Notes under the pieces: generated by a model | What the model was told of the DNA's origin: nothing | The model's input: the letters and a program-made list of their open reading frames with translations, nothing else | The model's database searches: none | Position numbers and translations under genes: made by a program | Assembly (NCBI RefSeq): GCF_947331465.1 | Contig: NZ_CAMZOK010000002.1 | Span: forward strand, 682,001 to 746,000 | Direction of reading: 5' to 3' | Source: Shimia sp. Alg240-R146 | Lineage (GTDB): Bacteria; Pseudomonadota; Alphaproteobacteria; Rhodobacterales; Rhodobacteraceae | DNA: 64,000 nt | In this document: piece by piece, positions 3,145-20,929 of the stretch | How the letters are laid out: every line of letters starts with the position of its first letter | How positions within the stretch are numbered: the first letter of the stretch is position 1

Positions 3145-4017
3145 TTACGTGAATTTCCGAAACAAGCGCGTGTTGTCAAACATCTCTTCCAGTTCTTCGG
3201 CGCGGTCTTTTGTGTCTCCCCAGCAGAGGTTCTGCACGGTTGAAACCATTGCTTCGGTCAGCAGAAGCGTGGCGCTGATACTATCCCAAGCCGAGGGAAC
3301 AACGATACGACTGCTGAAGCTGATGTTGGCCAACCGATGCACAGGTGAGCGCCATTGGTCTGTAAACAGAATGAGTTTGGCCCCCTTTTGGTGTGCAATT
3401 TCAGCGAGCTTTAGCGTGTTGTTTTCGTATCTACGCATGTCAAAGATTACAAAAACATCGCCTTCCTTTACGTCGAGCAGATAGTGCGGCCACGCGTTTG
3501 AGGTCGATTGAATATGGACAACCTCGGGGCGGATCATTTGCATGTGTAAAAAGAGGTATTCCGCCAACGTGTGGGTGATCCGGCCGCCAACGATATAAAG
3601 GCGTCCCTTGGGGGCGGCCACCATCTCGCAGGCCTCATCAAACAGGGCAGGGTCAATCTGGCCAAGTGTGTTGCGGATGTTGTCTATGACCGCGTCTGTA
3701 AAGCGGTTGAGCATGTGGCCAGAGGGCGCGCCTTCGGCCCACGCGTCATGTTTCGCAACGGGCCCACGTGCGGCAGCTTTTAGCTCTTCTCGCAGCTCTG
3801 CCTGGAATTCGGGATAGCCTTTGAATCCCAGTTTCTGCACCATTCGGGCCACGGTTGGCACCGAAACCTCTGCTTCTGTCGCCAGCGCTGCAAGTGGGCC
3901 CAGACCTGAGGCGGGATAATTTTCAAGAATAGAATCAGCAAGTTGGCGTTCAGCCCTCGTCAGATCGTCCAGCTTCTCGTGGATGCGATCCGAAATTGTA
4001 CTTGTGGGTTCCGACAT
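3145..4017 (-). CDS. MurR/RpiR-family transcriptional regulator
   Basis: A 290-residue protein with the two-domain RpiR layout. An N-terminal HTH (about residues 5-75) has the family core LTRAERQLADSILENYP and a recognition helix SVPTVARMVQKLGFKGYPEF. A C-terminal SIS domain (about 120-260) contains GRLYIVGGRITHTLAEYLF and DVFVIFDMRRYENNTLKLAE. SIS domains bind phosphosugars or related ligands. It is transcribed divergently from the hydrolase/TRAP/ligase cluster at 4137, which it very likely controls. The ATG at 4017 is preferred over an in-frame TTG at 4029 because of the upstream GAGAGCAGAG. The effector is unknown, and sugar phosphates look unlikely given the neighbours. Confidence 0.88.
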   Translation of the reverse strand: MSEPTSTISDRIHEKLDDLTRAERQLADSILENYPASGLGPLAALATEAEVSVPTVARMVQKLGFKGYPEFQAELREELKAAARGPVAKHDAWAEGAPSGHMLNRFTDAVIDNIRNTLGQIDPALFDEACEMVAAPKGRLYIVGGRITHTLAEYLFLHMQMIRPEVVHIQSTSNAWPHYLLDVKEGDVFVIFDMRRYENNTLKLAEIAHQKGAKLILFTDQWRSPVHRLANISFSSRIVVPSAWDSISATLLLTEAMVSTVQNLCWGDTKDRAEELEEMFDNTRLFRKFT

Positions 4018-4059
4018 CTCTGCTCTCAATTTGATCGATAAAATAACAAAGTCACGTGT

Positions 4060-4077
4060 TGTGAGAAAAACTTTACA
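4060..4077. promoter_or_regulatory. Imperfect inverted repeat, possible RpiR operator
   Basis: TGTGAGAAAAACTTTACA lies between the two divergent start codons. Its outer bases are symmetric (TGTnA...TnACA) and the centre is AT-rich. It is the only dyad I noticed in this gap. Operator function is inferred from position alone. Confidence 0.25.
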
Positions 4078-4136
4078 GAATTTGATTGACAGAATCTACC
4101 GCTGAGCAGCAGTTTGTTGCCGTGAGGGACGGAAAA

Positions 4137-4928
4137 ATGACCAAAGCGCAGCCAAAGGACCAAGCAGGTCCTTCAAAAGACTTCTCGTCTGTCGAGACCA
4201 TTCCCGGAGGCTCGTCGGTGGTGCTTGTGTGCGAACATGCCTCGCGTTTTATCCCTGCTGAATTCGGAACGCTCGGCCTAGATGACGCCGCCCGGCAAAG
4301 CCACGTGGCCTGGGATCCCGGAGCTTTGGCCGTGGCGGAGCGTATGGCGACTTTGTTGGATGCCACGCTTGTGGCTGGCAAGGTGTCTCGGTTGATTTAC
4401 GACTGCAATCGGCCGCCACACGCGCCTGACGCGATGCCCGAGCACAGCGAAGTTTTTGACATTTCAGGGAATGCAGATCTGAGCACAGCGGACAGAGAAA
4501 GACGCGTGGAAGCGATATATGCGCCGTTCAAAGAAAGCCTGCAGCATGCGGTTGCTGGTGTGAAGGCTCCGGTCATCGTCACGATCCACAGCTTTACACC
4601 GGTTTACAACGGCGCGCGGAGATCTGTTGAGATCGGCATTCTGCACGACACTGACGGCCGTTTGGCAGATGCAATGCTGACTCTCGCGCCGAAGTACACG
4701 CAGGCGAACACCCAACGAAATCAGCCTTATGGTCCCGAAAATGGCGTCACACACACCTTGAAGGAACATGCGATCCCAGCAGGCCATCTGAATGTCATGT
4801 TGGAAATTCGCAACGATCTGATCGAGAGCCAATCACAACAGTCCGACATCGCTACACAGCTGGCTGCTTGGGTGGCTGAAGCATGCGCAGTCGCTGGAGC
4901 CGAGGGGTTGGTGCAATGCAAGGCGTGA
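4137..4928 (+). CDS. N-formylglutamate amidohydrolase family hydrolase
   Basis: A 263-residue member of the FGase/HutG-like zinc amidohydrolase family. Visible family blocks are VCEHASRFIPAEFG near the N terminus, AWDPGALAVAERMA, SRLIYDCNRPP, VIVTIHSFTPVYNG and HLNVMLEIRNDLI. The His and Glu in the first and last blocks are the expected metal ligands. Classical substrates are N-formylglutamate and similar N-acylated glutamates. No other histidine-degradation gene is nearby. Instead it heads a cluster with a glutamine-synthetase-like ligase, suggesting cleavage of a gamma-glutamyl or N-acyl amide (inference). ATG 4137 is preferred over TTG 4086 because an AGGG precedes it; it overlaps the next gene by 13 nt. 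Confidence 0.85.
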   Translation: MTKAQPKDQAGPSKDFSSVETIPGGSSVVLVCEHASRFIPAEFGTLGLDDAARQSHVAWDPGALAVAERMATLLDATLVAGKVSRLIYDCNRPPHAPDAMPEHSEVFDISGNADLSTADRERRVEAIYAPFKESLQHAVAGVKAPVIVTIHSFTPVYNGARRSVEIGILHDTDGRLADAMLTLAPKYTQANTQRNQPYGPENGVTHTLKEHAIPAGHLNVMLEIRNDLIESQSQQSDIATQLAAWVAEACAVAGAEGLVQCKA

Positions 4929-5485
4929 TGCGCGGCTACATCAGCACCGTCGATGCGGTGAACCGCCGAATAGGGCGGTTCGTGATGTATGGGATTTTTG
5001 TCCTAATGGGCATTCTGCTTTGGTCGTCCATAAGCAAGACGTTTTTTCTACCGTCACTCTGGACGCTTGAAATGGCTCAGTTTGTGATGGTCGGCTACTA
5101 TATCCTTGGTGGTCCATATTCGATCCAGATGGGGTCAAATGTGCGGATGGACTTGCTCTATGGCGAGTGGAACCTGCGTCGGAAGGCCTGGTTCGATTTG
5201 GCCACCGTGCTTTTGTTGATCTTCTACCTCTGTGTGCTGCTTTACGGAGCCGTCAGTTCCACGGCCTATTCGCTTGGGTATTGGGGCTCCGAGCCAGTGT
5301 CCTTTTTGGCTGGTGTCGTTTTCGGAACCGAAGAAGTAGGGCGGCTAGAACGGTCTCCTACCGCGTGGCGCCCCTATATCTGGCCGATCAAAGTCGTGAT
5401 GATTTTTGGCATGATCCTAATGATCCTTCAGTGTTTTTCGGAATTCTTGAAGGACGTCCTGCGTCTGACGGGTGAGGACTGCTGA
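4916..5485 (+). CDS. TRAP transporter small permease (DctQ type)
   Basis: A 189-residue membrane protein with four hydrophobic segments: about residues 22-42 (MYGIFVLMGILLWSSISKTF), 53-73, 98-120 and 155-178. The first pair and the motif YYILGGPYSIQMGSNVRMD match the DctQ fold, including the GGP...VRVD-like signature. DctQ pairs with DctM to form the sodium-driven permease that takes ligand from a periplasmic binding protein. ATG 4916 has GAGGGG 8 nt before it. The stop overlaps the dctM start (TGATG). Confidence 0.9.
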   Translation: MQGVMRGYISTVDAVNRRIGRFVMYGIFVLMGILLWSSISKTFFLPSLWTLEMAQFVMVGYYILGGPYSIQMGSNVRMDLLYGEWNLRRKAWFDLATVLLLIFYLCVLLYGAVSSTAYSLGYWGSEPVSFLAGVVFGTEEVGRLERSPTAWRPYIWPIKVVMIFGMILMILQCFSEFLKDVLRLTGEDC

Positions 5486-6813
5486 TGTCGTATGAATTGA
5501 TCGCAACTCTGATGTTTTCGACCCTGATGCTGATGCTTCTTACGGGGCAGCGGGTGTTCGGGGCCATTGGGTTTGTGGCGGTCGTCGCGGCCCTGCTGCT
5601 TTGGGGTGATCGGGGCGGCTTTGACCTTGGCTTTTCGGCGGCGATGAAGCTGATGAAATGGTATCCGCTTCTGACGCTGCCGATGTTTATCTTCATGGGG
5701 TATGTGCTCTCGGAGAGCAAAATTGCCGATGATCTTTACAAGATGTTCCATGTTTGGATGGGCGGATTGCGCGGTGGATTGGCCATCGGCACAATCGGTT
5801 TGATGGTGCTGATTTCGGCGATGAACGGTCTTAGCGTGGCTGGCATGGCCATCGGCTCAACAATTGCGCTGCCTGAACTTCTGAAGCGGGGCTACGACAA
5901 ACGCATGGTCACGGGTGTCATTCAGGCGGGATCAAGCCTTGGCATTCTGGTGCCGCCTTCGGTGGTGTTGGTGCTTTACGCAATGATTGCGCGCCAGCCT
6001 GTTGGCCAATTGTGGTTGGCGGGGGTGGTTCCGGGGCTGATGATGGCCGGATTGTTCATCCTCTACATCGTCGTGCGGTGCCGGATAAACCCAGCTTTGG
6101 GGCCTGTTTTGCGGTCGGAGGAACGCGACATGCCGCGGGCCGAAAAACTTCGCCTGCTGCGGTCTGGTTTGCTGCCGGTTGTGATTTTTGCGACGATGAT
6201 GGTGCCCTTTGTCAACGGATGGACGTCGTTGGTGGAGAGCTCTGCAATTGGCGCGCTCACCGCCTTTTTGGCGGCGGTTCTGAAAGGCCGGATGACGCGA
6301 GAGGTCTTTGAGAACTCTGTTCGCAACACGCTTGGCATCACCTGCATGTTCATGTGGATTATTCTGGCGGCGCTGGCATTTGGGGCAGTTTTTGATGGGC
6401 TTGGCGCGGTAAAGGCAATCGAAACGCTGTTTACCGACCGGCTAAGCCTAAGCCCTTGGATGATCCTGATCCTGATGCAGCTGAGCTTCATCCTGATGGG
6501 GACGTTCTTGGATGACACAGCCATGCTTGTCATCGTGGCGCCACTGTATGTGCCTTTGGTCGATGCCCTTGGTTTTGACCTCATCTGGTATGGCATTCTT
6601 TATACGATCACGACGCAGATTGCCTATATGACGCCGCCGTTTGGTTACAACCTCTTCCTGATGCGGGCCATGGCGCCACCGGAGATTTCGCTGCGCGATA
6701 TCTACAGTTCGATCACGCCGTTTGTGCTGGTCATGGTGCTGGCCCTGATCCTCGTAATGGTCTTTCCAGGTCTCGCGACTTGGTTGCCCGAATACATTTA
6801 CAACAAGCCCTAG
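5485..6813 (+). CDS. TRAP transporter large permease (DctM type)
   Basis: A 442-residue polytopic protein of normal DctM length with about 12 hydrophobic segments. Recognisable stretches are GAIGFVAVVAALLLWGD, MNGLSVAGMAIGSTIALPEL, the conserved IQAGSSLGILVPPSVVLVLY, and LMGTFLDDTAMLVIVAPLYV. Near the C terminus TTQIAYMTPPFGYNLFLMR is typical of the family. It forms the transport channel with the DctQ protein encoded just upstream. Confidence 0.93.
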   Translation: MSYELIATLMFSTLMLMLLTGQRVFGAIGFVAVVAALLLWGDRGGFDLGFSAAMKLMKWYPLLTLPMFIFMGYVLSESKIADDLYKMFHVWMGGLRGGLAIGTIGLMVLISAMNGLSVAGMAIGSTIALPELLKRGYDKRMVTGVIQAGSSLGILVPPSVVLVLYAMIARQPVGQLWLAGVVPGLMMAGLFILYIVVRCRINPALGPVLRSEERDMPRAEKLRLLRSGLLPVVIFATMMVPFVNGWTSLVESSAIGALTAFLAAVLKGRMTREVFENSVRNTLGITCMFMWIILAALAFGAVFDGLGAVKAIETLFTDRLSLSPWMILILMQLSFILMGTFLDDTAMLVIVAPLYVPLVDALGFDLIWYGILYTITTQIAYMTPPFGYNLFLMRAMAPPEISLRDIYSSITPFVLVMVLALILVMVFPGLATWLPEYIYNKP

Positions 6814-6858
6814 AAGAGCCGCAAAAAGTGGCCGTATTTCCAACAAAGGAGAATGACA

Positions 6859-7890
6859 ATGACGACAAGACGTAAGTTTATTCAGGGGGCCGCAGTGGCG
6901 GCTCCAGCGGCGCTGGCCACACCGGCTTTGGCGCAGAGCACAATCAAGTGGCGCATGCAAACCTATGCGGGCGCTGCTTTGGCAGAACACGTTCTGGTGC
7001 CAGCGGTTGAGATGTTCAACAAAATCGCCGGCGATCGCATGCAGATCGAGTTGTTTTTTGCAGACCAGCTCGTGCCAACTGGTGAGCTGTTTCAGGCTAT
7101 GCAGCGTGGCACCATCGACGCTGTGCAGTCTGACGACGACTCGATGGCGTCGCCAACCGACGTCACGGTGTTTGGCGGGTACTTCCCTTTTGCGTCGCGC
7201 TATTCGCTGGATGTGCCGGTGTTGTTCAATCAGTACGGCCTGAACGAGATCTGGGACGAAGAGTATTCCGCTGTTGGCGTCAAGCACATCAGCGCCGGTG
7301 CGTGGGATCCATGCCACTTTGCCACCAAGGATCCGATCCGCAGTCTTGAAGACCTTAAAGGCAAACGTGTCTTTACCTTCCCGACCGCAGGCCGTTTCCT
7401 AAGCCAGTTCGGCGTCATTCCGGTCAACCTGCCTTGGGAGGACATCGAAGTCGCTATGCAAACCGGCGAGTTGGATGGCATCGCATGGTCGGGCATCACC
7501 GAAGACTACACAGTTGGCTGGGCGGATGTGACCAACTACTTCCTTACCAACAACATTTCCGGCGCTTGGGCTGGCTCTTTCTTTGCCAACATGGAGCGTT
7601 GGAACGAGCTGCCTGAAGATCTGCAAACGCTGTTCCGCGTGTGCTGTGATCAGTCGCACTATTATCGCCAGTGGTGGTATTGGGGCGGAGAAGCCAACCT
7701 GCGCGTCAACGGGCCAAAAATGGAATTGACCTCGATCCCAGACGACGAATGGGCCACAGTCGAAGCCAAAGCTTTCGAATTCTGGGAAGAGATTGCCGCA
7801 GAATCCGACACCAAGCGTCGGGTTGTGGACATCATCAAGAAATACAACGCGGACATGGTCAAAGCTGGCCGTCCGTACCGCTACTCTTAA
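6859..7890 (+). CDS. TRAP transporter substrate-binding protein (DctP type)
   Basis: A 343-residue periplasmic protein. The N terminus MTTRRKFIQGAAVAAPAALA carries a twin-arginine-like RR followed by a hydrophobic stretch and an ALA cut site before QSTIKW. The body has DctP hallmarks: FFADQLVPTGELFQAMQRGT, the LEDLKGKRVFTFPTAGRFL loop with an Arg in the ligand pocket, and GELDGIAWSGITEDYTVGW. TRAP ligands are usually organic anions or zwitterions; the exact one cannot be read. The AAAGGAG at 6845-6851 is too close to ATG 6853, so ATG 6859 is the better start. A strong hairpin follows the gene. Confidence 0.9.
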   Translation: MTTRRKFIQGAAVAAPAALATPALAQSTIKWRMQTYAGAALAEHVLVPAVEMFNKIAGDRMQIELFFADQLVPTGELFQAMQRGTIDAVQSDDDSMASPTDVTVFGGYFPFASRYSLDVPVLFNQYGLNEIWDEEYSAVGVKHISAGAWDPCHFATKDPIRSLEDLKGKRVFTFPTAGRFLSQFGVIPVNLPWEDIEVAMQTGELDGIAWSGITEDYTVGWADVTNYFLTNNISGAWAGSFFANMERWNELPEDLQTLFRVCCDQSHYYRQWWYWGGEANLRVNGPKMELTSIPDDEWATVEAKAFEFWEEIAAESDTKRRVVDIIKKYNADMVKAGRPYRYS

Positions 7891-7899
7891 ACCCCTTCT

Positions 7900-7922
7900 G
7901 GGGGCGGCGTCACGCCGCCCCC
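7900..7922 (+). other. Intercistronic hairpin after the TRAP binding-protein gene
   Basis: GGGGGCGGCG (7900-7909) and CGCCGCCCCC (7913-7922) form a perfect 10-bp stem with a TCA loop, 10 nt after the dctP-type stop. No T run follows, so it is more likely an mRNA-stabilising or partial-termination element than a full terminator. Confidence 0.75.
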
Positions 7923-7947
7923 AAACCTCTCAGCAAGTGGATACGAC

Positions 7948-9312
7948 ATGCCCGGCACACTCTCTTTTGACGATCTGAAATCCCGTGTCACGGATGGCAC
8001 TATTGATACGGTTCTGGTGTGTCTTATCGACATGCAGGGGCGTTTGATGGGCAAACGTTTCCATGCGGTCAATTTCGTTGAGAGCTCCTACAAAGAAACG
8101 CATTGCTGCAATTATCTGCTGGCAACTGATTTGGAGATGGCCACGCCGGATGGCTATGCCTCGACCAGCTGGCAAGCTGGCTATGGCGACTATGTGATGA
8201 AGCCGGATCTGGGAACGATCCGTTTGATTCCATGGCTCGAAGGGACTGCAATGGTGTTGTGTGATGTGATCGATCATCACACGCATGAACCCGTGCCACA
8301 CTCGCCACGCGCGGTGTTGAAAAAGCAGATCGCGCGAGCCGAAGCGATGGGGCTGGACGTGATGATGGCGACCGAGTTGGAGTTCTTTTTGTTTGAGAAG
8401 AGCTTTGACCAGATCCGCAAAGAGGGCTTCCGAGATCTGGAGCCGATCAGCGGTTACAATGAAGATTACCACATTCTGCAGACCACCAAAGAAGAGAACG
8501 TGATGCGGCCGATCCGCAATCACCTTTTTGCCGCTGGATTGCCTATCGAGAACTCGAAGGGCGAAGCAGAGGCCGGTCAGGAAGAGCTGAACATTCGGTA
8601 TGACAAAGCGCTGAATTGTGCGGATCACCACACGATTGCGAAGCACGCGATCAAAGAAATTGCATGGCAAAATGGCCATGCCGCAACTTTTCTGCCCAAG
8701 TGGCACCAAGATCGGGTTGGGTCCTCGTCGCATGTGCACCAATCCGTCTGGAAAGACGGCGAGCCGCTTTTCTATGACAAGTCTGACAAACTGGGCATGT
8801 CCGAGCTGATGAAAAACTACATGGCCGGATTGATCGCTTATTCTTCGGACTACACTTATTTTCTCGCGCCTTACGTAAACAGCTACAAACGCTTTGCCAA
8901 AGGGTCGTTTGCGCCGACCAAAGCCGTTTGGTCGGTCGACAACCGGACCGCAAGTTTCCGCCTATGTGGTGACGGAACCAAGTCGGTGCGGGTGGAATGT
9001 CGCATCGGCGGCGCGGACATGAACCCCTATCTTGCGCAGGCAGCCATGTTGGCCGCCGGCCTAAAGGGGATTGAAGACAAGATGGAACTGGCCCCCGCAG
9101 CTGCAGGCGATGCCTATGTCAACGAGATCGCCAAGGACGTTCCCCGCACGTTGAACGCAGCGATGGACACATTGAAAAACTCTGCGTTTCTGCGTGAGGC
9201 CTTTGGCGACGACGTTGTGGATCACTACACACGCGCTGCTGAATGGGAGCAGGAAGAATTTGACCGCGCGGTCACCGACTGGGAAGTCGCGCGCGGCTTT
9301 GAAAGGGCCTAA
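7948..9312 (+). CDS. Glutamine synthetase family gamma-glutamyl-amine ligase
   Basis: A 454-residue GS-fold enzyme. ATP-dependent ligases of this fold join the gamma-carboxyl of glutamate to an amine. Seen motifs: ATELEFFLFE (metal-binding Glu), IENSKGEAEAGQEELNIRY, GSSSHVHQSVWKDGEP (the HxH block), FAPTKAVWSVDNRTASFRL (ATP-binding region) and RVECRIGGADMNPYLA (C-terminal active-site strand). The conserved GS adenylylation loop is not evident, and the gene sits between transporters and dehydrogenases, so ammonia assimilation is unlikely. PuuA-, GMAS- and ethanolamine-type ligases are the closest functional models. The amine substrate is unknown. Confidence 0.85.
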   Translation: MPGTLSFDDLKSRVTDGTIDTVLVCLIDMQGRLMGKRFHAVNFVESSYKETHCCNYLLATDLEMATPDGYASTSWQAGYGDYVMKPDLGTIRLIPWLEGTAMVLCDVIDHHTHEPVPHSPRAVLKKQIARAEAMGLDVMMATELEFFLFEKSFDQIRKEGFRDLEPISGYNEDYHILQTTKEENVMRPIRNHLFAAGLPIENSKGEAEAGQEELNIRYDKALNCADHHTIAKHAIKEIAWQNGHAATFLPKWHQDRVGSSSHVHQSVWKDGEPLFYDKSDKLGMSELMKNYMAGLIAYSSDYTYFLAPYVNSYKRFAKGSFAPTKAVWSVDNRTASFRLCGDGTKSVRVECRIGGADMNPYLAQAAMLAAGLKGIEDKMELAPAAAGDAYVNEIAKDVPRTLNAAMDTLKNSAFLREAFGDDVVDHYTRAAEWEQEEFDRAVTDWEVARGFERA

Positions 9313-9315
9313 GGC

Positions 9316-10689
9316 ATGACGATTACTTGTATTTCCCCGATTGACGGATCCGTATATGCGACCCGCGAAACTTTGGACGCTGGGCAAGCGCAAGAAAGTG
9401 TCGCGCGTGCAAAGTTAGCCCAAAAGGCTTGGGCGGCGCGTCCCCTAGAGGACCGTATTGCGCTTGTACGCGACGGTGTGGCCCGCGTGGGTGCGATGAA
9501 CGACGAGATCGTGCCCGAGATCGCATGGCAGATGGGCCGTCCCGTCCGCTATGGCGGTGAGTTTGGTGGCTTCAACGAACGCGCCAGCTATATGGCGGAT
9601 ATCGCAACCGACGCTTTGGCGCCCATCGAGGTCGAAGACAGCGACGCCTTCCGCCGCGTGATCAAGCGGGTGCCGCATGGCGTCGTGTTTGTCGTAGCGC
9701 CGTGGAATTATCCCTATATGACGGCGATCAACACAGTTGCTCCAGCCCTGATTGCGGGCAACGCCGTCATTCTGAAACATGCCTCTCAAACACCGTTGGT
9801 CGGTGAGCGCATGGTTTCAGCTTTTGTTGCTGCGGGCGTGCCAGAAGACGTATTCCAGAACGTGTTTCTGGACCACGACACGACGTCCGATCTGATCGCC
9901 GCACGCGCTTTTGATTTTGTGAACTTCACCGGCTCCGTCGGTGGCGGCAAGGCGATGGAGGCCGCGGCAAGCGGTACATTTACCGGATTGGGGTTGGAGC
10001 TTGGTGGCAAAGACCCGGGATACGTCATGGACGACGCCGATCTGGACGCTGCGGTCGATACTCTGATTGACGGCGCGATGTTCAACTCGGGGCAATGCTG
10101 CTGCGGAATTGAGCGGATTTACGTCGCTGAGAGCTTGTTTGACGCTTTTGTCGAAAAGGCCGTTGCGATTGTGAACGCCTACAAGTTGGGCAACCCGCTT
10201 GAGGCCGACACCACAATGGGACCGATGGCGCATGTGCGTTTTGCTGAAGAGGTCCGCGGGCAGGTGGCTGAGGCGGTGGCAGCAGGTGCCACAGCGCACA
10301 TTGATCCGGCAAACTTCCCAGAGGATGGCGGTGCATACTTGATGCCGCAAATCTTGACCGACGTGACACATGATATGCGCGTGATGCGTGAAGAAAGCTT
10401 TGGTCCTGTTGTGGGGATTATGCCCGTCAAAGACGACGCCCATGCGATTGCCTTGATGAATGATAGCGACTTTGGTCTGACGGCGTCGCTGTGGACCCAA
10501 GACGCCGACCGTGCCGAAGCCATCGCGGATCAGATCGAAACCGGCACAGTGTTTATGAACCGTGCCGACTATCTTGATCCCGGTCTGTGCTGGACCGGAT
10601 GCAAAGACACCGGTCGCGGCGGCGGCCTGTCGATCATCGGCTATCACAACCTGACACGTCCAAAATCTTATCACCTGAAAAAGGGCTGA
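9316..10689 (+). CDS. NAD(P)-dependent aldehyde dehydrogenase
   Basis: A 457-residue ALDH, on the short side of the family. The cofactor site shows APWNYPYMTAIN and NFTGSVGGGKAM. The general base Glu lies in GLELGGKDPGYVMDDADLD, and the catalytic Cys lies in MFNSGQCCCGIERIYV. The late motif MREESFGPVVGIM is also present. It starts 4 nt after the ligase gene and ends 4 nt before the iron alcohol dehydrogenase, so the three are one transcription unit. In context it should oxidise the aldehyde made by the next gene's product to an acid. Confidence 0.9.
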   Translation: MTITCISPIDGSVYATRETLDAGQAQESVARAKLAQKAWAARPLEDRIALVRDGVARVGAMNDEIVPEIAWQMGRPVRYGGEFGGFNERASYMADIATDALAPIEVEDSDAFRRVIKRVPHGVVFVVAPWNYPYMTAINTVAPALIAGNAVILKHASQTPLVGERMVSAFVAAGVPEDVFQNVFLDHDTTSDLIAARAFDFVNFTGSVGGGKAMEAAASGTFTGLGLELGGKDPGYVMDDADLDAAVDTLIDGAMFNSGQCCCGIERIYVAESLFDAFVEKAVAIVNAYKLGNPLEADTTMGPMAHVRFAEEVRGQVAEAVAAGATAHIDPANFPEDGGAYLMPQILTDVTHDMRVMREESFGPVVGIMPVKDDAHAIALMNDSDFGLTASLWTQDADRAEAIADQIETGTVFMNRADYLDPGLCWTGCKDTGRGGGLSIIGYHNLTRPKSYHLKKG

Positions 10690-10692
10690 CCC

Positions 10693-11838
10693 ATGTCACT
10701 TACTGCTAACTGGTCCTATCCCACGGCTGTGCGCTTTGGCGCAGGCCGTATCTCGGAAATCGCGGATGCCTGCGCGGCCGCTGGCATTTCCAAACCGTTG
10801 CTCATCACAGATCGCGGTCTGGCAGACATGGACATCACCACCCGCACGCTGGATTTTTTGGAGGCGGCGGGATTGGGGCGTGCGATCTTTGCTGACGTCG
10901 ACCCAAACCCCAACGAGAAGAACGCCGAAGCTGGCGTGAAAGCCTTCAACGATGGCGGACATGATGGCGTTGTCGCCTTTGGCGGCGGCTCCGGTCTGGA
11001 CCTTGGTAAGCTGGTCGCCTTCTTGGCAGGGCAAACCCGTCCGTTGTGGGATTTTGAAGACATCGGTGATTGGTGGACACGCGCGGATTCTGACGCGATC
11101 GCGCCTATTGTCGCGGTGCCGACTACTGCCGGAACAGGGTCGGAAGTTGGTCGTGCTTCGGTGATCACCAACTCCGAAACCGAAGAGAAGAAGATCATCT
11201 TCCATCCGAAGTTTCTGCCATCTGTGGTTATCTGTGACCCTGAACTGACCGTGGGCATGCCCAAATTCATCACAGCGGGCACCGGTCTTGATGCCTTTGC
11301 CCATTGCGTCGAGGCTTTTTGTTCGCCGCATTACCACCCAATGTCGCAAGGCATGGCGTTGGAAGGTATGCGTTTGGTCAAGGAATACCTGCCGCGCGCC
11401 TATGCAGACGGCACCGATATAGAGGCGCGCGCGCATATGATGTCGGCTGCGGCGATGGGCGCGACCGCCTTTCAAAAAGGTCTGGGCGCGATCCACGCAT
11501 TGTCGCATCCGATCGGCGCGATCTATCACACCCACCACGGCACAACCAACGCCGTTTGCATGCCGGCGGTGTTGCAGTTCAACAAACCGGCCGCAGAAGG
11601 TGTGTTGACGCAAGCGGCAAACTATCTTGGTATCGAAGGCGGCTTTGACGGCTTTTGTGCTTATGTGGATGCGTTGAATGACTCGATGGGAATTCCCAAA
11701 ACTCTTAAAGGGCTTGGCATCGAAAATCCTGACATCGACCGCATCGTTCAAGGCGCTCTGAAGGACCCAAGCACAGGCGGAAACCCCGTTGAGATGACAC
11801 AAGACAACACACGTGAGCTGTTGTTAAAGATTGTGTGA
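10693..11838 (+). CDS. Iron-containing (group III) alcohol dehydrogenase
   Basis: A 381-residue protein of the Fe-ADH family. The NAD-binding part has VAFGGGSGLDLGKLVAF and VPTTAGTGSEVGRASVI. The metal site is formed by GLDAFAHCVEAF and HALSHPIGAIYHTHHGTTNA, whose Asp and His residues are the expected ligands. Such enzymes interconvert alcohols and aldehydes, including hydroxy- and amino-substituted ones. Placement directly after the ligase and ALDH genes suggests it oxidises the hydroxyl of a gamma-glutamylated amino alcohol (inference). Confidence 0.9.
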   Translation: MSLTANWSYPTAVRFGAGRISEIADACAAAGISKPLLITDRGLADMDITTRTLDFLEAAGLGRAIFADVDPNPNEKNAEAGVKAFNDGGHDGVVAFGGGSGLDLGKLVAFLAGQTRPLWDFEDIGDWWTRADSDAIAPIVAVPTTAGTGSEVGRASVITNSETEEKKIIFHPKFLPSVVICDPELTVGMPKFITAGTGLDAFAHCVEAFCSPHYHPMSQGMALEGMRLVKEYLPRAYADGTDIEARAHMMSAAAMGATAFQKGLGAIHALSHPIGAIYHTHHGTTNAVCMPAVLQFNKPAAEGVLTQAANYLGIEGGFDGFCAYVDALNDSMGIPKTLKGLGIENPDIDRIVQGALKDPSTGGNPVEMTQDNTRELLLKIV

Positions 11839-11896
11839 TGGGTCAAAAGTTCTGTCACAAATTCTACGTAAACCTTTGTTATTTAATATCAATAAT

Positions 11897-11980
11897 GCGG
11901 AGTGAGGATTGCCTGACAGGATTCAAAACTCCGCGATCACGCGTTCGGCCAAGGTTTGACACAGAACCTTTGACCGAACG
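11897..11980 (+). promoter_or_regulatory. Structured leader: two successive stem-loops before the polyamine-type ABC operon
   Basis: The first stem pairs GCGGAGT (11897-11903) with ACTCCGC (11928-11934) and encloses a small CCT-GAC-AGG hairpin. The second pairs CGTTCGG (11942-11948) with CCGAACG (11974-11980) and, inside it, AAGGTT (11951-11956) with AACCTT (11965-11970). No T run follows. They occupy the 199-nt gap before the binding-protein gene. They could be an attenuator, operator or riboswitch-like leader; I match them to no known class. Confidence 0.5.
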
Positions 11981-12037
11981 ATCAAACTCTAGGAAACTGG
12001 CACTTTAGCCAATCAATCAAAAACGGGGAATTAGAAA

Positions 12038-13108
12038 ATGACCAAACAATCCTTTGCACTTTCGACGGCGGTTACCGTTGCTCTCATGGGCGGCGCGACA
12101 GTTGCCAACGCCGACACGCTGCGTCTTTTGACCTGGGGCGGATATGCACCCGAAGATGTGGTGGCCAAGTTTGAAGCCGAAACCGGCCACACCGTCAAAG
12201 TGACCAAGTCCAACAACGAAGAAATGATCGCCAAGCTGCGCGCCACCGGCGGCGGCGGATTTGACCTTGCCCAGCCGAGCCAAGACCGGATCGCGGGGCC
12301 TCAGGAAGAATTTGGCATCTACAAGCCCATGGACATGTCCAAAATCGACATGAGCCTGTTCATTCCTTCGATGCTGGAAGCCACTAAGGGCAACACCACT
12401 GTCGGCAGCGACGTTTACGGCGTGCCACACGTCTGGGGCACCAGCGGCCTGGTCGTCGACACGGCCAACGCAGGCATGGTCAAAGACTATACAGACCTTT
12501 GCGGTGCTGATGTTGCTGGCAAAGTTTCTTATCGCCTGAAGCGCCCGACATTGATCGGCTTCGCGTTCTCGATGGGGCTGGATCCATTTGCAGCCTATAG
12601 CGACGAAGCAGCCTATACCGACATCATGGCGCAAGTAGAGGCCAAGCTGATCGAATGTAAGCCTGGCGTCAAAACCTATTGGGGTGGCGGTGACGAGCTG
12701 ATGGGTCTGCTGCGCTCTGGCGAAGTAGTGGCCTCTATGGCTTGGGACACCGGTGGCTGGAAGTTGAACGATGACAACTCCGACATCACCTTTGTCGCGC
12801 CTGCAGCCGGTGCTCTGGGTTGGGTAGACACATTTGTTCTGCCAGCCAAAGGCAAAGCAGACGACGCGGCATACGCTTGGATCAACTTTGTGATGCAGCC
12901 AGAAGTCGCGGCGATGATCACCGCTGCTGCTGGTAACTTTACGGCGTCGCAAGGCGCAGCTGAGTTTGCGGACGATGGGTTGAAAGCCAAGTACAAAGCT
13001 AGCTTCCCGCAAGAAGCGATCGACAACATCAAATGGTATCCTCCGGTTCCTGCGGGTCTGGAAGCCATCGAAGGCGGCGTTCTTGACCGTGTAAAAGCAG
13101 CCAACTAA
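12038..13108 (+). CDS. Polyamine-type ABC transporter substrate-binding protein (PotD/PotF-like)
   Basis: A 356-residue periplasmic protein. A signal peptide of about 25 residues ends ATVANA before DTLRLLTWGGYAPEDVVAKF, the usual start of PotD/PotF-like proteins. AWINFVMQPEVAAMITAAAG near residue 285 is the family's conserved C-terminal helix. WDTGGWKLNDD and FVAPAAGALGWVDTFVLP line the pocket. Ligands of this family are amines and polyamines. It begins the potD-A-B-C order and is followed by a hairpin that should keep its level above that of the permease genes. Confidence 0.9.
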   Translation: MTKQSFALSTAVTVALMGGATVANADTLRLLTWGGYAPEDVVAKFEAETGHTVKVTKSNNEEMIAKLRATGGGGFDLAQPSQDRIAGPQEEFGIYKPMDMSKIDMSLFIPSMLEATKGNTTVGSDVYGVPHVWGTSGLVVDTANAGMVKDYTDLCGADVAGKVSYRLKRPTLIGFAFSMGLDPFAAYSDEAAYTDIMAQVEAKLIECKPGVKTYWGGGDELMGLLRSGEVVASMAWDTGGWKLNDDNSDITFVAPAAGALGWVDTFVLPAKGKADDAAYAWINFVMQPEVAAMITAAAGNFTASQGAAEFADDGLKAKYKASFPQEAIDNIKWYPPVPAGLEAIEGGVLDRVKAAN

Positions 13109-13127
13109 GCCTCTAAAACTACTTTTG

Positions 13128-13153
13128 AGCGCCCGCCGACATTGGCGGGCGCT
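13128..13153 (+). other. Intercistronic hairpin after the polyamine-type binding-protein gene
   Basis: AGCGCCCGCC (13128-13137) and GGCGGGCGCT (13144-13153) make a perfect 10-bp stem with a 6-nt loop, followed by only TTTC. It probably acts as a partial terminator or 3' end protector, with read-through into the ATPase gene. Confidence 0.75.
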
Positions 13154-13176
13154 TTCGACTATCTGGGAGTTCTCGC

Positions 13177-14277
13177 GTGACAGCTGATCTTGAATGCATC
13201 GATTTGGAAAAACGCTTCGGCGACACTGTGGCTGTGGACCGCGTTTCGTTTTCCGTTCCGCAGGGGTCTTTCTTTTCTATCTTGGGCCCATCCGGCTGTG
13301 GCAAAACCACGATCATGCGGATGATTGCGGGTTTTCTTGACCCAAGCGACGGTGACATTCTTATCAAGGGAAAATCTGTTCTCGACGTAGCGCCGAACAA
13401 GCGTCCCGTGAACATGGTGTTCCAGCATCTCGCGTTGTTCCCAATGATGAACATCGCTGACAATATCGGGTACGGCCTGCGCCGAACGGGAATGGGTAAG
13501 GCCGACATCAACCGCAAAGTTGACGAAGCACTCGACCGTATTGGCCTGCCTGGAATTGGCCAGCGCAAAGTGGATGAGCTGTCCGGTGGGCAAAAGCAGC
13601 GCGTGGCCATTGCCCGTTGCATGGTGCTTGAGCCGGATGTGCTGTTGCTGGACGAGCCGCTTGGCGCGCTTGATCTGAAATTGCGCGAACGTATGAAAGT
13701 AGAGCTGAAAGCGCTGCAATCGGCGTTTGACACAACTTTCGTTTACATCACCCACGATCAATCCGAAGCGTTGGTCATGTCTGACAACATTGCTGTGATG
13801 AACGAAGGCCGATTTGAACAGGTCGGCACCGCACGGGATCTGTATTACCGCCCTGACACCGCTTTTGTTGCTGGCTTTGTGGGCGACAGCAACCGGTGGC
13901 GCGGACGTGTGACAAAACTGGACGGCCAAGATCTTGAATTGCTGTCAGACACAGGCATGCCTTTGCGTGGCGCGATACAAGGTCGAACCCTGAACGTTGG
14001 CGATATGGCGGATGTCTTTGTCCGCCCCGAGGCGATCAAAATCGCCCACGTCAAAGGCGAGCTGTCTCAGTTTGATAATCAACTCTCTGGCACGGTGACC
14101 TCGCTGTTGTTCAACGGCGCCGCCAGCCGAGTCATCATTGCAAGTGACACCGGCCACGGCGAAGTCGAAGTGAACCTGCCGCAGTCTGGCGAATTCGCGG
14201 ATCTGGTGAAGGGGTCCGAGGTGCACATTGGTTGGGGCAGTGATCAAGGCAATTGCTTTGCCGCGGAGGCGAGCTGA
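13177..14277 (+). CDS. Polyamine-type ABC transporter ATP-binding protein (PotA-like)
   Basis: A 366-residue ATPase. Walker A is GPSGCGKTT (about residues 39-47), the signature is DELSGGQKQRVAIARCMVL, Walker B is VLLLDEPLGALD, and the switch His is in VYITHDQSEAL. After residue 240 a TOBE-type regulatory domain follows (FVRPEAIKIAHV). It energises the two permeases encoded next. The start is GTG at 13177 with GGGAG upstream. Its stop directly abuts the next ATG. Confidence 0.92.
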   Translation: MTADLECIDLEKRFGDTVAVDRVSFSVPQGSFFSILGPSGCGKTTIMRMIAGFLDPSDGDILIKGKSVLDVAPNKRPVNMVFQHLALFPMMNIADNIGYGLRRTGMGKADINRKVDEALDRIGLPGIGQRKVDELSGGQKQRVAIARCMVLEPDVLLLDEPLGALDLKLRERMKVELKALQSAFDTTFVYITHDQSEALVMSDNIAVMNEGRFEQVGTARDLYYRPDTAFVAGFVGDSNRWRGRVTKLDGQDLELLSDTGMPLRGAIQGRTLNVGDMADVFVRPEAIKIAHVKGELSQFDNQLSGTVTSLLFNGAASRVIIASDTGHGEVEVNLPQSGEFADLVKGSEVHIGWGSDQGNCFAAEAS

Positions 14278-15135
14278 ATGCGCGCCGAAGCCAAACTTGG
14301 GCTCGCCCTTTTGCTGACACCGCTTTTGATGTGGTTGTCTTTGCTGATTTTCATTCCACACGTCGATGTGTTTCTAGTTTCACTGCGCGAGCGCGTGGGC
14401 GTCGGCCAATATCAAATAAGCTTTGCAAACTATCTGACGTTCTTTCAGGAGCCGCTATATTTGTGGACTTTCCTGCGCACGGCCGTGATGTCATCGCTTG
14501 CAACGTTGATGACGCTGATAATCGCCTTTCCGGTGTCTTACTATATCGCCAAGATGATCAAGGGGCGGGCGCAATCAGCGCTGTTTCTGCTGTGCCTGGT
14601 GCCATTTTGGGTGTCCGAATTGGTGCGCACCTTCGGCTGGATGATCTTGCTGCGCGAAACCGGTGTCATTTCAAATGTCTTGCAATACCTCGGGCTGGTC
14701 GATGGCCCGGTAGAGATGCTCTATAACGACGGCGCCATCATGATCGGGCTGGTCTATACGTCGATGCTTTTCATGGTTGTACCACTGGTCACAACGCTTG
14801 AAAGCCTGCCCGATGAAGTGATTGAAGCGGGTTATGATCTTGGTGGCAATGGCGTCAGCGTGTTGCGCGAGATCATCATTCCGCACGCCATGCCGGGCAT
14901 CGTGTCGGGCTGCATCGTGGTCTTTATGCTGAGCCTTGGCAACTACCTGACGCCCACCATGCTGGGCGGCAAGGAGAGCCTTTGGTTCACCGAGCTGATC
15001 TATTCCCAGTTCATCGTTCGCTTCAACTGGGAACTCGGCGCGGCCTTTGGCTTTATGCTGTTGATCCTGTCGTCAGCGATTGTCTGGGGCATGCTCAAGC
15101 TTACCGGTCAATCCCTTGAAAAGACTATGGGATAG
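14278..15135 (+). CDS. Polyamine-type ABC transporter permease (PotB-like)
   Basis: A 285-residue membrane protein with six predicted helices. The first is at about residues 8-28 (LGLALLLTPLLMWLSLLIFI). The EAA loop that contacts the ATPase reads EAGYDLGGNGVSVLREIIIP around residues 182-201. GNYLTPTMLGG is the typical PotB/PotH stretch. It pairs with the PotC-like protein 11 nt downstream. Confidence 0.92.
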   Translation: MRAEAKLGLALLLTPLLMWLSLLIFIPHVDVFLVSLRERVGVGQYQISFANYLTFFQEPLYLWTFLRTAVMSSLATLMTLIIAFPVSYYIAKMIKGRAQSALFLLCLVPFWVSELVRTFGWMILLRETGVISNVLQYLGLVDGPVEMLYNDGAIMIGLVYTSMLFMVVPLVTTLESLPDEVIEAGYDLGGNGVSVLREIIIPHAMPGIVSGCIVVFMLSLGNYLTPTMLGGKESLWFTELIYSQFIVRFNWELGAAFGFMLLILSSAIVWGMLKLTGQSLEKTMG

Positions 15136-15146
15136 GAGACGCCAAT

Positions 15147-15998
15147 ATGATCCCTTCGATCCCCCAACCAAGGTTTTTGACCGCCGCCTACACGGCCTAT
15201 GTGACACTGTTCTTTGTCTTTTTGGCTTTGCCGCTAGTTGTCGTCGCGGTCTTTGCCTTTAACGACAGTCAATTTCCCTCTCTGCCGTGGGAAGGATTCA
15301 CTTGGAACTGGTTCTTTGGCTCTGAACGTCCGATGATCGGTGTGTTTCACGAACGCGGTATCCTCGGCGCGATTGGCACGTCTGTATTGGTGGCCGTGGT
15401 GGTGTCGGCGATGTCCGTTTTTGTCGGCATGACCAACGCGTTCTTGTTCAATCGCTACAAATTCCGCGGCCAAAGCGTGCTATATGTCTTCATGCTTTTG
15501 CCGCTGGTTATTCCCGGCATTGTGTTGGGTATTTCCATTTTGGTTTTTTCGAGCCGTGTCGCAAACGGCCTTTGGGACGGCTTTGAGATCGACGTAGAAG
15601 CCCTGCGCCCGGGCTTGTGGCTGGTGATATTGGGTCAGTTTTCATTCATTACGACGATCGCGACCTTGGTCATTGGTGCGCGCTTGCAAAAGTTCGATCG
15701 CACGTTGGAAGAAGCTGCGCTGAACCTTGGCGCGGGCAAGTTGACGGCCATACGCACCGTGACATTACCGTATCTGGCACCGGCCATGATCGGGGCCTTT
15801 GTGGTGGCCTTCCTGATGAGCTTTGAGAACTTCAACACCACTTTGATGTTGGTGGGGTCCGACGCTCCGCTGACCATCGCCATGTTTGATCGGCTCAAGG
15901 AAGGGTCAACGCCTTTGCTAAATGCGGTGTCTTTGCTGTTGATGATCGGCTCGTCCTGTTTGGCCCTCGTGATGATTGCCTTTCAGCGAAAGTCATAA
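15147..15998 (+). CDS. Polyamine-type ABC transporter permease (PotC-like)
   Basis: A 283-residue inner-membrane permease with six hydrophobic helices. The EAA loop is EEAALNLGAGKLTAIRTVTL (about residues 191-210), and MSFENFNTTLMLVGSDAPLT matches PotC/PotI. It is the last gene of the amine-related cluster on this strand. A stem-loop follows at 16037-16060. Confidence 0.92.
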   Translation: MIPSIPQPRFLTAAYTAYVTLFFVFLALPLVVVAVFAFNDSQFPSLPWEGFTWNWFFGSERPMIGVFHERGILGAIGTSVLVAVVVSAMSVFVGMTNAFLFNRYKFRGQSVLYVFMLLPLVIPGIVLGISILVFSSRVANGLWDGFEIDVEALRPGLWLVILGQFSFITTIATLVIGARLQKFDRTLEEAALNLGAGKLTAIRTVTLPYLAPAMIGAFVVAFLMSFENFNTTLMLVGSDAPLTIAMFDRLKEGSTPLLNAVSLLLMIGSSCLALVMIAFQRKS

Positions 15999-16060: not shown

Positions 16061-16176
16061 ATTCCACCAACAAAACACTAGTCATCCTCGCTGTGCAGTA
16101 GGGGCTTTGCGCACCAACACTCTCGGAGTGTCCCTTCGAGAAACAACACAAAATGTACTTTAAGCAAAAAAAACAG

Positions 16177-16206
16177 TTGACCGACTCGCTGAATGTTTTT
16201 TATGGA
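16177..16206 (+). promoter_or_regulatory. Candidate sigma-70-type promoter for the sugar ABC operon
   Basis: TTGACC (16177-16182) is separated by 18 nt from TATGGA (16201-16206), 48 nt before the ATPase start. An ACACTC/GAGTGT dyad at 16117-16131 lies upstream and could be an activator or repressor site. Both are read by eye. Confidence 0.35.
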
Positions 16207-16254
16207 ATAAGAACCAAATCGTGGTGCGCAACGCGCTACGTAGGGGAGGGACGC

Positions 16255-17034
16255 ATGACCAAACAGGACGCCGACAAAATCATTTTGCAGGCCCGTGGCT
16301 TGAGCAAACGCTATGGCGGCGTTGTCGCGCTTGAGGATGTGGATCTGGAATTACGGCAAGGCGAAGTGCTTGCGGTTGTTGGTGACAATGGCGCGGGTAA
16401 GTCGACGCTCATCAAAGCATTGACGGGTGCAATCGCAAAAACCGCGGGCCGCGTTGAGATTGACGGGCAGGAAGTCCACATCGACTCTCCGACGCAAGCA
16501 AAGGCGGTGGGTATCGAAACCGTTTACCAAGATCTTGCGCTTGTTGACGAGTTGTCGATCACCAAAAACATGTTTTTAGGGCGCGAGATCAAACGTAAAG
16601 ACGTCTTTGGTCGGCTGTTTGGGACGCTTGATTTCGCCAAAATGGACACCGAAATTCGCGCGCTTTTCCAAAAGCTCGACATCCGGATTGCCGACATTTA
16701 CCGCGAGGCAGAAGCCTTTTCCGGGGGACAACGCCAAGCGGTGGCGCTGGCCAAAACCGTGATGTTTGGCAAGCGCATCGCAATTTTGGATGAGCCGACC
16801 GCAGCACTTGGTGTGCGCGAAAGCAAGATGGCCATGGATCTGGTCAATTCTCTGAAAGATCATGGTTTGTCCGTGATCATGATCACCCACAACATGCAGC
16901 ATGTGATGAACTATTGCGATCGCGTCATGGTGCTGCGCCTAGGCCGTCTTGCGGCGGTGCGCGACGTCAAGGATGTCGATGGGGACACGCTTGTGGGCCT
17001 GATCACCGGCACCGTTGAAGACAAGGCCGCATGA
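16255..17034 (+). CDS. Sugar ABC transporter ATP-binding protein (FrcA/RbsA-like, single domain)
   Basis: A 259-residue ATPase with one nucleotide-binding domain, as in FrcA, rather than the tandem RbsA form. Walker A is GDNGAGKSTLIKALTG, the signature is AFSGGQRQAVALAKTVMF, Walker B is RIAILDEPTAALGV, and the switch region is ITHNMQHVM. The carbohydrate-uptake subfamily is indicated by AILDEPTAALGVRES. ATG 16255 follows a GGGGAGGG at 16243-16250. An open frame extends farther upstream to 16153 but with non-coding-like content. Its partners follow in the order ATPase, permease, binding protein. Confidence 0.92.
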   Translation: MTKQDADKIILQARGLSKRYGGVVALEDVDLELRQGEVLAVVGDNGAGKSTLIKALTGAIAKTAGRVEIDGQEVHIDSPTQAKAVGIETVYQDLALVDELSITKNMFLGREIKRKDVFGRLFGTLDFAKMDTEIRALFQKLDIRIADIYREAEAFSGGQRQAVALAKTVMFGKRIAILDEPTAALGVRESKMAMDLVNSLKDHGLSVIMITHNMQHVMNYCDRVMVLRLGRLAAVRDVKDVDGDTLVGLITGTVEDKAA

Positions 17035-17035
17035 G

Positions 17036-18028
17036 ATGACTGACATGACACAATCGTCCTCGACACAAATTTCTACACCTTCGGCGACAAGCTCGAGCTT
17101 TGACATTCTGCGGCACCAGTTTCTGCAGATCTGGCAAGTTCTGGCGGCTTTGGTGTTGATTTACCTGACATTTTTTGTGCTTTCGGAACCTTTCCGAAGC
17201 TTGGACACGTTGCTTTCGATCTTTGGGCAAGCTTCCATTCTGGCCATTCTGGCGTGCGGCACGACCGTTGTTCTTATCTCGGGTGGGCTGGATCTTTCCG
17301 TGGGATCAATCTTTGCCGTTGTCGGTGTGATCGTCGGGATTGCATTGGCAGAATACCAGCTGCCGGTCATTGTGGCGGTTGTGATCGGCTTGGCCGCCGG
17401 TGCGTTCATGGGCGCTTTAAACGGCACCATTCAGGTGTTCACGAAAGTGCCTGCCTTTATCGTCACGCTTGGCGGATTGACGGCCTATAAAGGGATCGCA
17501 GAGATCCTTGCCAGTGGGCGAGATCTGTCGCGGTTCCCCGAGAGTTTTCAGATGTTGGGATCGGGGTATCTGGTGCCGATGACCATTATGTTCGCAGTGG
17601 CGCTTGTGACAGGTCTTTTTCTGACCAAGACGCAACTGGGCAACCATGCTTTTGCGGTCGGTGGCAACGAGGAAGTGGCGCGTCTGTCTGGCGTGAACGT
17701 GCGCAAGAGCCGCATTTATTATTACATGATTGGCGGCCTTTTGGCGGCGACTGCGGCCATCCTTGAGGTGTCCAAACTCAACTTTGCCATGCCAGCGCGG
17801 GGACAAAGCTATGAGCTTTTTGCCATCGCGGCTGTTGTGATTGGTGGCACCAGTTTGTTTGGCGGCCGCGGTGGCGTGGGAAAGACGCTGATCGGCATGC
17901 TGATCATGCAAACCATCATCGTCGGCCTGTCCTATTTGGGCGTGGGCACATCGGTGCAACGCATCGCAATCGGCATCATCATTATCCTGGCTGTATATTG
18001 GGACGTCTGGCGACGACCGACCCGCTAA
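17036..18028 (+). CDS. Sugar ABC transporter permease (RbsC/FrcC-like)
   Basis: A 330-residue membrane protein of the RbsC type. It has a Ser/Thr-rich cytosolic N terminus and then 8-10 hydrophobic segments. LISGGLDLSVGSIFAVVGV and KVPAFIVTLGGLTAYKGIA are hallmark stretches, as is GNEEVARLSGVNVRKSRIY, the cytosolic loop docking to the ATPase. ATG 17036 lies 2 nt after the ATPase stop with AAGG upstream inside that gene; ATG 17045 is the alternative. Confidence 0.92.
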   Translation: MTDMTQSSSTQISTPSATSSSFDILRHQFLQIWQVLAALVLIYLTFFVLSEPFRSLDTLLSIFGQASILAILACGTTVVLISGGLDLSVGSIFAVVGVIVGIALAEYQLPVIVAVVIGLAAGAFMGALNGTIQVFTKVPAFIVTLGGLTAYKGIAEILASGRDLSRFPESFQMLGSGYLVPMTIMFAVALVTGLFLTKTQLGNHAFAVGGNEEVARLSGVNVRKSRIYYYMIGGLLAATAAILEVSKLNFAMPARGQSYELFAIAAVVIGGTSLFGGRGGVGKTLIGMLIMQTIIVGLSYLGVGTSVQRIAIGIIIILAVYWDVWRRPTR

Positions 18029-18128
18029 GCCGCTGAATTCAAGAAATTCTGATGGGTGTGGAGGAACGCTCACAGGACAAGTCCGGCCCAAGTCCGGGCA
18101 TCTATTACCCAAAGGGAGGAGAAAGAAA

Positions 18129-19034
18129 ATGACAGCTTTTAAAACGATGGCAGCCACGGTTGCCCTCAGCGTGTCGATGGCGGGAGCCGCGTTTGCCGCG
18201 GATTTGCGCATCGCTTACACTGGGTATTCCACAGACAACACGTTCTGGATCGGTGTGGCCAAGGCCGCTGCGGCGCAAGCGGATGAAATGGGTGTTGAAT
18301 TGCTTGATCTGACGGCATCGTCGCCGGATGCCGCCGCACAGAAAGACGCAGTGGACCGTGCCATCAACATGGGCGTCGACGGCATCATCATTGGTTCTGT
18401 AGACAACCGCGCGTTTGACGCGTCTTTGGACAATGCCAAGCGCAAAGGCATACCCGTTGTCGCGGTCGACACCGGAATTGAGCACGATCACGTGGCGAGC
18501 CTTGTGCAAACTGACAACCTCGCGGCCGCGTCGATTGCGGGTGGCTATATCGTTGACCAATTGGACGCAGGTACCGTGCTTATTCTTGGAGGCAGCGCAG
18601 GGCACCAGACAGGCAACGCGCGTCGGGATGGCGTGAAAAACGCAGCCGAGGCTGCAGGTCACGAGGTGATTTTCCAGATCTGTGATTGGCAGGACGCCTG
18701 CGCCTATGAAACAACCGTCAACTTCCTGCAGTCAAACTCGGACATCAAAGCGATCTTTTCCGCGTGGGATCCGGGTGCGTTGGCTGCGGTGTCGGCTGCC
18801 AGCGAATTGGGGAAACTGGACGATCTCGTGATCGTGGGTTTTGACGGCAACCCAGCCAATCTGGTGTCCATCGAAGCGGGTGAACAGGCCGCAACGATCA
18901 AGCAGGACAACACCCGTATGGGCGTTGAGGCGGTGTCCAACCTTATCGGCCTGATAAAGGGCGAAGAGGTGGCAGCATTCACTCCGATCGACGGTATTTT
19001 GATCACATCAGACAACGTGGCGGACTTTAAGTAA
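18129..19034 (+). CDS. Periplasmic sugar-binding protein (RbsB-like)
   Basis: A 301-residue periplasmic-binding-protein-like fold I protein. The signal peptide ends MAGAAFAADL. The mature start DLRIAYTGYSTDNTFWIGVA gives the ligand-facing Phe/Trp loop. DGIIIGSVDNRAFDASLDNA, VVAVDTGI and NARRDGVKNAAEAAG are also typical, and FDGNPANLVSIEAGEQAATI is the late hinge region. The context suggests a deoxysugar or aldose ligand. A GC-rich hairpin follows the gene. Confidence 0.92.
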   Translation: MTAFKTMAATVALSVSMAGAAFAADLRIAYTGYSTDNTFWIGVAKAAAAQADEMGVELLDLTASSPDAAAQKDAVDRAINMGVDGIIIGSVDNRAFDASLDNAKRKGIPVVAVDTGIEHDHVASLVQTDNLAAASIAGGYIVDQLDAGTVLILGGSAGHQTGNARRDGVKNAAEAAGHEVIFQICDWQDACAYETTVNFLQSNSDIKAIFSAWDPGALAAVSAASELGKLDDLVIVGFDGNPANLVSIEAGEQAATIKQDNTRMGVEAVSNLIGLIKGEEVAAFTPIDGILITSDNVADFK

Positions 19035-19049
19035 CGCCATTTGACCAAC

Positions 19050-20919: not shown

Positions 20920-20929
20920 GGAGAGCAAC

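Follow-up and report, generated by a model that had tools for sequence, protein, structure and literature searches.

Segment 3145-11838 of the DNA analysed here, a 64,000-nucleotide stretch of the 4.19 Mb genome of Shimia sp. Alg240-R146 (G000:C2:682001-746000; hereafter the window), is very probably the eto ethanolamine utilisation operon as in Phaeobacter sp. MED193, judging from its genes and their order. The core operon and its pathway are already published, so that the original prediction of a new candidate route is superseded by the description for MED193 (PMC10132767). There, MED193_10021 to 10056 consecutively encode RpiR, GGAH, EtoV, EtoW, EtoX, ETAGA, GAADDH, and GETADH (PMC10132767), and all eight recur in the window in that order, RpiR first. 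Five of the MED193 proteins (GGAH, EtoX, ETAGA, GAADDH, and GETADH) were raised on phosphorylethanolamine, and MED193 EtoX bound ethanolamine with a dissociation constant of 7.9 uM and did not bind phosphorylethanolamine, glycerol-1- or -3-phosphate, or phosphocholine (PMC10132767). The same source calls the MED193 genes close relatives of those in Chromohalobacter salexigens and Agrobacterium tumefaciens C58. The same four-step gamma-glutamyl route is proposed for Streptomyces in PMC6529630, which refers to an in silico prediction made earlier for C. salexigens. The GlnA4 pathway of S. coelicolor resembles that of the window in its proposed chemistry, from glutamylation through FGase-family hydrolysis to glycine, while its gene list has a short-chain dehydrogenase in place of the iron-type alcohol dehydrogenase (Fe-ADH) and other kinds of transporter and regulator (PMC6529630). 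Because the window has the gene order of MED193 (PMC10132767) and the same four steps have been given for Streptomyces (PMC6529630), the predicted conversion of ethanolamine through gamma-glutamyl intermediates to glutamate and glycine appears right as far as it is testable, and is already known.

All components of the predicted plus-strand cluster were present: a glutamine synthetase (GS)-like ligase, an Fe-ADH, an aldehyde dehydrogenase (ALDH), an FGase, a tripartite ATP-independent periplasmic (TRAP) transporter, a PotABCD uptake system, and a divergent RpiR regulator. Each named gene is a long open frame in the list of open reading frames (ORFs) of the window and has profile matches. The RpiR/SIS-type transcriptional regulator (3145-4017, Pfam HTH_6 and SIS) lies on the minus strand, divergent from the operon, with all other genes on the plus strand. 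The first of these encodes the FGase-family hydrolase, a predicted gamma-glutamylglycine amidohydrolase (GGAH, 4137-4928; Pfam FGase E 8.7e-37, PDB 2odf Atu2144 E 6.7e-75), followed by the TRAP small permease DctQ (EtoV, 4916-5485; Pfam DctQ E 1.9e-13), the large permease DctM (EtoW, 5485-6813; Pfam DctM E 4.3e-68), and the binding protein DctP (EtoX, 6853-7890). The ORF list opens the FGase frame at 4086 and the DctQ frame at 4883; the starts adopted here are 4137 and 4916. Next come the GS-like ligase, a predicted ethanolamine gamma-glutamylase (ETAGA, 7948-9312), the ALDH, a predicted gamma-glutamylacetaldehyde dehydrogenase (GAADDH, 9316-10689; Pfam Aldedh E 5.8e-115) in the position of MED193_10051, and the Fe-ADH, a predicted gamma-glutamylethanolamide dehydrogenase (GETADH, 10693-11838; Pfam Fe-ADH and ADH_Fe_C) in the position of MED193_10056. 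The ligase, ALDH, and Fe-ADH frames are spaced by 3 bases each.

In the proposed pathway, EtoVWX would import ethanolamine, which the ligase would couple to the gamma-carboxyl group of glutamate in an ATP-consuming reaction. The Fe-ADH would then oxidise gamma-glutamylethanolamide to the aldehyde, the ALDH would presumably follow it to yield gamma-glutamylglycine, and the FGase-type hydrolase would release glutamate and glycine, with RpiR likely controlling the operon from the divergent promoter. The evidence in hand covers which genes are present and in what order, their homology and synteny, the identity of EtoX to a protein that binds ethanolamine, and the residue pattern of the ligase, from which we infer the enzymatic steps, the order of the two dehydrogenases, and the regulation.

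Relatives of the ligase occurred in at least 593 stretches, of which the best 80 were kept as loci, with kinship ignored in the counts. The closest named locus among these best 80 of at least 593 belongs to Shimia sp. SK013, whose ligase shares 93% identity with that of the window. A complete operon in the order FGase-DctQ-DctM-DctP-GS-ALDH-FeADH on one strand was found in 62 of the 80 loci, 60 of these with a divergent RpiR, and the clustering is therefore not due to chance. Of the 18 loci without the complete operon, seven come from records shorter than 12.5 kb and may be truncated. A sample of the window's family contained the ligase in 180 of 295 genomes (E 1e-150) and DctP in 160 (E 1e-100), and a class sample contained the ligase in 38 of 385 genomes, four of them from the window's family.

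By sequence, the TRAP binding protein of the window is of the ethanolamine-binding type. A search of PDB sequences matched it to 4uab and 4xf5 (E 4.6e-189), and it shares 261 of the 318 aligned residues (82%) with 4uab; the segment GELDGIAWSGITEDYTVGWA is the same in both proteins. The structure 4uab is that of Csal_0678 of C. salexigens with bound ethanolamine; PMC12410723 and PMC4646407 name Glu220 as its platform acid and note that it is without the arginine usual in carboxylate-binding TRAP proteins. Given this degree of identity to a protein whose structure contains ethanolamine, the latter is a likelier substrate than 3-aminopropanol.

The ligase likewise resembles a protein of known structure, PDB 5dm3 (E 4.7e-227), which we take to come from C. 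salexigens; the likeness to that organism's system covers both binding protein and ligase. C. salexigens itself is a gammaproteobacterium. We aligned the window ligase and the 80 related ligases with E. coli GlnA and PuuA, using the customary roles (metal, glutamate, and ammonium-site residues) and numbering of the residues. Nine metal, glutamate, and related residues (E129, E131, E212, E220, H269, R321, R339, E357, and R359) are kept in the window and in 80/80 relatives, while the ammonium-site Glu327 is Phe in all 81. The ammonium site of a housekeeping GS (D50, S53, Y179, and E327) is thus incomplete in the window ligase, where E327 is replaced by Phe and S53 by Ala and Y179 falls in a gap; the genome's own GlnA keeps all four. 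This pattern fits, without proving, a ligase for an amine other than ammonia.

Similarity of PotABCD to polyamine importers, together with a score of 200.7 bits for the ligase on the gamma-glutamylputrescine synthetase model NF045547, could suggest instead that the cluster gamma-glutamylates a polyamine brought in by PotABCD, in the manner of PuuA, or 3-aminopropanol. The score is far below the model cut-off of 650, and identity of the ligase to E. coli PuuA is 28%, whereas the ligases of the kept loci are 74-93% identical to it; two other GS-like genes of the genome are somewhat nearer PuuA (35 and 31%). The E. coli PuuABCD putrescine pathway shares the logic of a GS-like ligase, an ALDH, and a hydrolase. 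It differs in the low identity of its ligase and in using amine oxidation, where the window pathway has alcohol oxidation; by pathway logic, a diamine route needs no alcohol dehydrogenase. No significant match was found between the window FGase and E. coli PuuD. On the transport side, the polyamine carboxylates E36, D168, and E171 are lost in the window PotD, and a much better PotF match lies elsewhere in the genome (433 bits at C1:417609, below the model cut-off of 636). Taken with the ligase comparison, these points make polyamine or 3-aminopropanol glutamylation extremely improbable.

A locus elsewhere in the genome (C2:484345-487421) contains two GS-like genes with FAD oxidoreductase-like and amidotransferase-like genes and amino-acid-type ATP-binding cassette (ABC) permeases. 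The best NCBIfam matches of the neighbours are FAD-type pipecolate oxidase and amidotransferase, all below cut-off, and the amidotransferase is weakly similar to E. coli PuuD (E 0.002). Because the two GS-like genes stand beside these oxidoreductase-like and amidotransferase-like genes, polyamine glutamylation probably has its own locus here. EutB gave no match in the window genome; among 14 control genomes E. coli alone matched. Readings of the window cluster as a polyamine, housekeeping GS, or eut system were rejected on the model scores, the residue comparisons, and the lack of EutB.

Several observations weigh against the assignment to an ethanolamine operon. In the ammonium site, D50 is retained by the window ligase and by 58 of its 80 relatives. 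Position 220 in the chain numbering of 4uab is not Glu, and the published Glu220 was taken as Glu217 on the assumption of an offset of 3; this Glu217 is kept in 47/47 close and 21/21 more distant DctP matches from the related loci, and the surrounding segment is identical in the window. No ALDH is present in six loci whose records extend far enough downstream, and no DctP in eight that extend far enough upstream; parts of the operon are therefore replaceable. Genome G210, of the same genus, has no ligase match. Finally, the EtoX pocket could also admit a close relative of ethanolamine, for example the amino alcohol alaninol. If such analogues were accepted by this small pocket, the true substrate could be another small amino alcohol (alaninol or isopropanolamine), as in the isopropylamine route, with alanine or another compound as product. 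The closest characterised proteins, however, are assigned to ethanolamine, which is part of a lipid headgroup and has been detected in a diatom metabolome, and we regard this substitution as very improbable.

Short variants of the ethanolamine operon occur among the related loci. In L035, L045, L056, and L060 the ligase is followed directly by the Fe-ADH, without a matching ALDH; TRAP and FGase genes are absent upstream of the ligase in L035, L045, and L060, and L056 begins 546 bases before the ligase, with its upstream side outside the record. L081 and L083 (about 9277-13890) have the FGase directly 5' of the ligase and no TRAP genes, and another PotABCD-like set of 31-44% identity stands about 3.9 kb upstream. 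Two EtoX-like classes, approximately 61-65% and 78-99% identical to that of the window, accompany the same kind of ligase, and the Glu217 segment is kept in both. Within the genus, G315 has a PotD of 88% identity and, on another contig, an eto ligase of only 67% identity; neither was matched in G210. The operon thus looks both mosaic and patchy among members of the genus.

The regulator-operon intergenic region (4018-4136, plus strand) was aligned with those of 49 loci whose RpiR is at least 65% identical. TTGACA/T occurs in all 50 regions, in most of them preceded by an inverted repeat with the consensus TGTGATAAATTTTTCACA. This repeat is the predicted RpiR operator; in the window a degenerate copy lies directly 5' of the -35-like TTGACA. 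A 26-base matrix was built from the 50 regions, and 46 of these same regions score at least 10.6 on it.

Of the two uptake systems predicted for the cluster, the TRAP transporter belongs to the published operon, whereas the PotABCD-type unit (12038-15998), which starts 199 bases downstream of the Fe-ADH, is not in the figure legend of PMC10132767. The unit comprises a PotD-like ABC substrate-binding protein with a changed pocket (12038-13108), a PotA-like ATPase (13177-14277, ABC_tran and TOBE_2), a PotB-like permease (14278-15135, BPD_transp_1; PotB model 185.8 bits, below the cut-off of 348), and a PotC-like permease (15147-15998, BPD_transp_1), all on the plus strand. It shares the overall transporter family with E. 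coli PotABCD and PotFGHI, and its binding protein is 25% identical to PotD and 21% to PotF. Pocket residues and their roles follow the lists in PMC11414716 and PMC8666671. W34, Y37, W229, W255, and D257 of PotD are kept in the window protein and throughout 39 rows of homologues, 35 of them distinct. In 40/40 rows E36 is replaced by Gly, D168 by Lys, and E171 by Thr, leaving only D257 of the acidic polyamine set (E36, D168, E171, and D257); Y85 has become Asp and N213 Glu. As aligned, the pocket differs from the polyamine pocket of PotD. Lys168 could face an anionic group, in an alignment at 25% identity in which new acids also appear. The predicted model of the protein (mean predicted local distance difference test score 62.2, pocket segments below 50) is too poor to place side chains.

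PotABCD is best read as a further importer, for ethanolamine or for a compound related to it, at roughly even odds. A more specific proposal, that it would take up an intact zwitterionic headgroup (phosphoethanolamine or glycerophosphoethanolamine), its amine bound by D257 and the aromatic box and its anion by the invariant K168-R169-P170-T171 loop, is speculative and rather improbable.

PotABCD adjoins or lies near the operon in 17 of the 80 loci (in one by PotC only), being downstream in the same direction, convergent, or upstream; no description of it as a companion of the eto operon was found in the part of the literature searched. Within the family sample, PotD was matched in 39 of 295 genomes, in 32 of them with at least 73% identity and in 7 with no more than 54%. 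The eto ligase is present in 29 of these 32 genomes (the window's included) against 151 of the 263 others (Fisher p 1e-4), and the association holds when the window's genome is removed (28/31, p 1.5e-4). Four further PotD genomes from an order sample (G306, G309, G314, and G315) all have the ligase, within 10 kb in G309 and G314, and in the class sample outside the family the ligase occurs in 4 of 7 PotD genomes versus 30 of 373 (p 0.0016), within 10 kb in G515 only. PotABCD is a recurrent companion of the eto operon. We also considered PotABCD as a replacement for EtoX and rejected this as a general role: EtoX is matched in all of the 29 family genomes that have both PotD and ligase, with the sole exception of G106. 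Locus L060 carries the ligase, Fe-ADH, and PotABCD, with TRAP genes absent.

Physical linkage is less regular. Counted by eye from the listings, 13 of the 32 family genomes (the window's included) have the ligase within 10 kb of PotD; in the other 19 it is on another contig (14), far away on the same contig (2), or missing (3). Together with the scarcity of strong RpiR-type sites upstream of potD described below, these 19 genomes would suit an explanation in which PotABCD is unrelated to the ethanolamine operon and the linkage was inherited from a few chance placements. Against it, the linkage takes at least four arrangements: downstream and codirectional, convergent, divergent from the ligase (G106, about 230 bases apart), and upstream. 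It also recurs in two further families (G515 of family f70; Maritalea L068 and L073, Devosiaceae). A neighbour check of 16 stretches, namely 15 of the 19 unlinked family genomes and the linked G106, returned no neighbour family (40% identity) shared by more than one of the 15 unlinked stretches other than Pot genes, eto genes, and frames antisense to Pot genes, on a coarse greedy ORF call that weak neighbours may escape. We therefore consider chance placement unlikely, though a serious alternative.

The 26-base matrix from the RpiR intergenic regions was used to scan upstream of potD in 41 rows, 5 of them repeats of an already listed gene. Scores of at least 10.6 were reached in three rows only (L104 19.3, L103 14.9, and L017 13.1); the window, at 8.4 (p 0.06 against 100 shuffles), is not among them. 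In 19 of the 41 rows p was below 0.05 against plain base shuffles, which is above chance and may reflect a weak related signal. Overall, the scan at most leans against an RpiR operator shared with PotABCD. The potD upstream region of the window (11839-12037) contains TTTGACCGAACGATCAAA, and TTTGACC also occurs upstream of potD in several unlinked loci, in some as TTTGACCATTTGGTC. Repeats of this type, which only some members of the set have, may indicate control by a regulator different from RpiR and would also suit a unit unrelated to the operon. A scan for promoters and terminators between 11700 and 13200 yielded nothing beyond what shuffled sequences give.

Beyond PotABCD, positions 16153-22543 of the window hold a separate sugar-type cluster with an ABC ATPase, a BPD_transp_2 permease, a Peripla_BP_4 binding protein, a zinc-type alcohol dehydrogenase, an SDR, an RraA-like protein, and a GntR/FCD regulator.

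The core operon is already known to connect the breakdown of phospholipids with the nitrogen supply of marine bacteria, and a further copy only adds to the data on its distribution. What may be new is the recurrent second transporter, PotABCD. Should its cargo be a lipid headgroup, the unit would be relevant to phosphate-independent headgroup use and a candidate for the Pho-independent uptake left open by the MED193 authors (PMC10132767).

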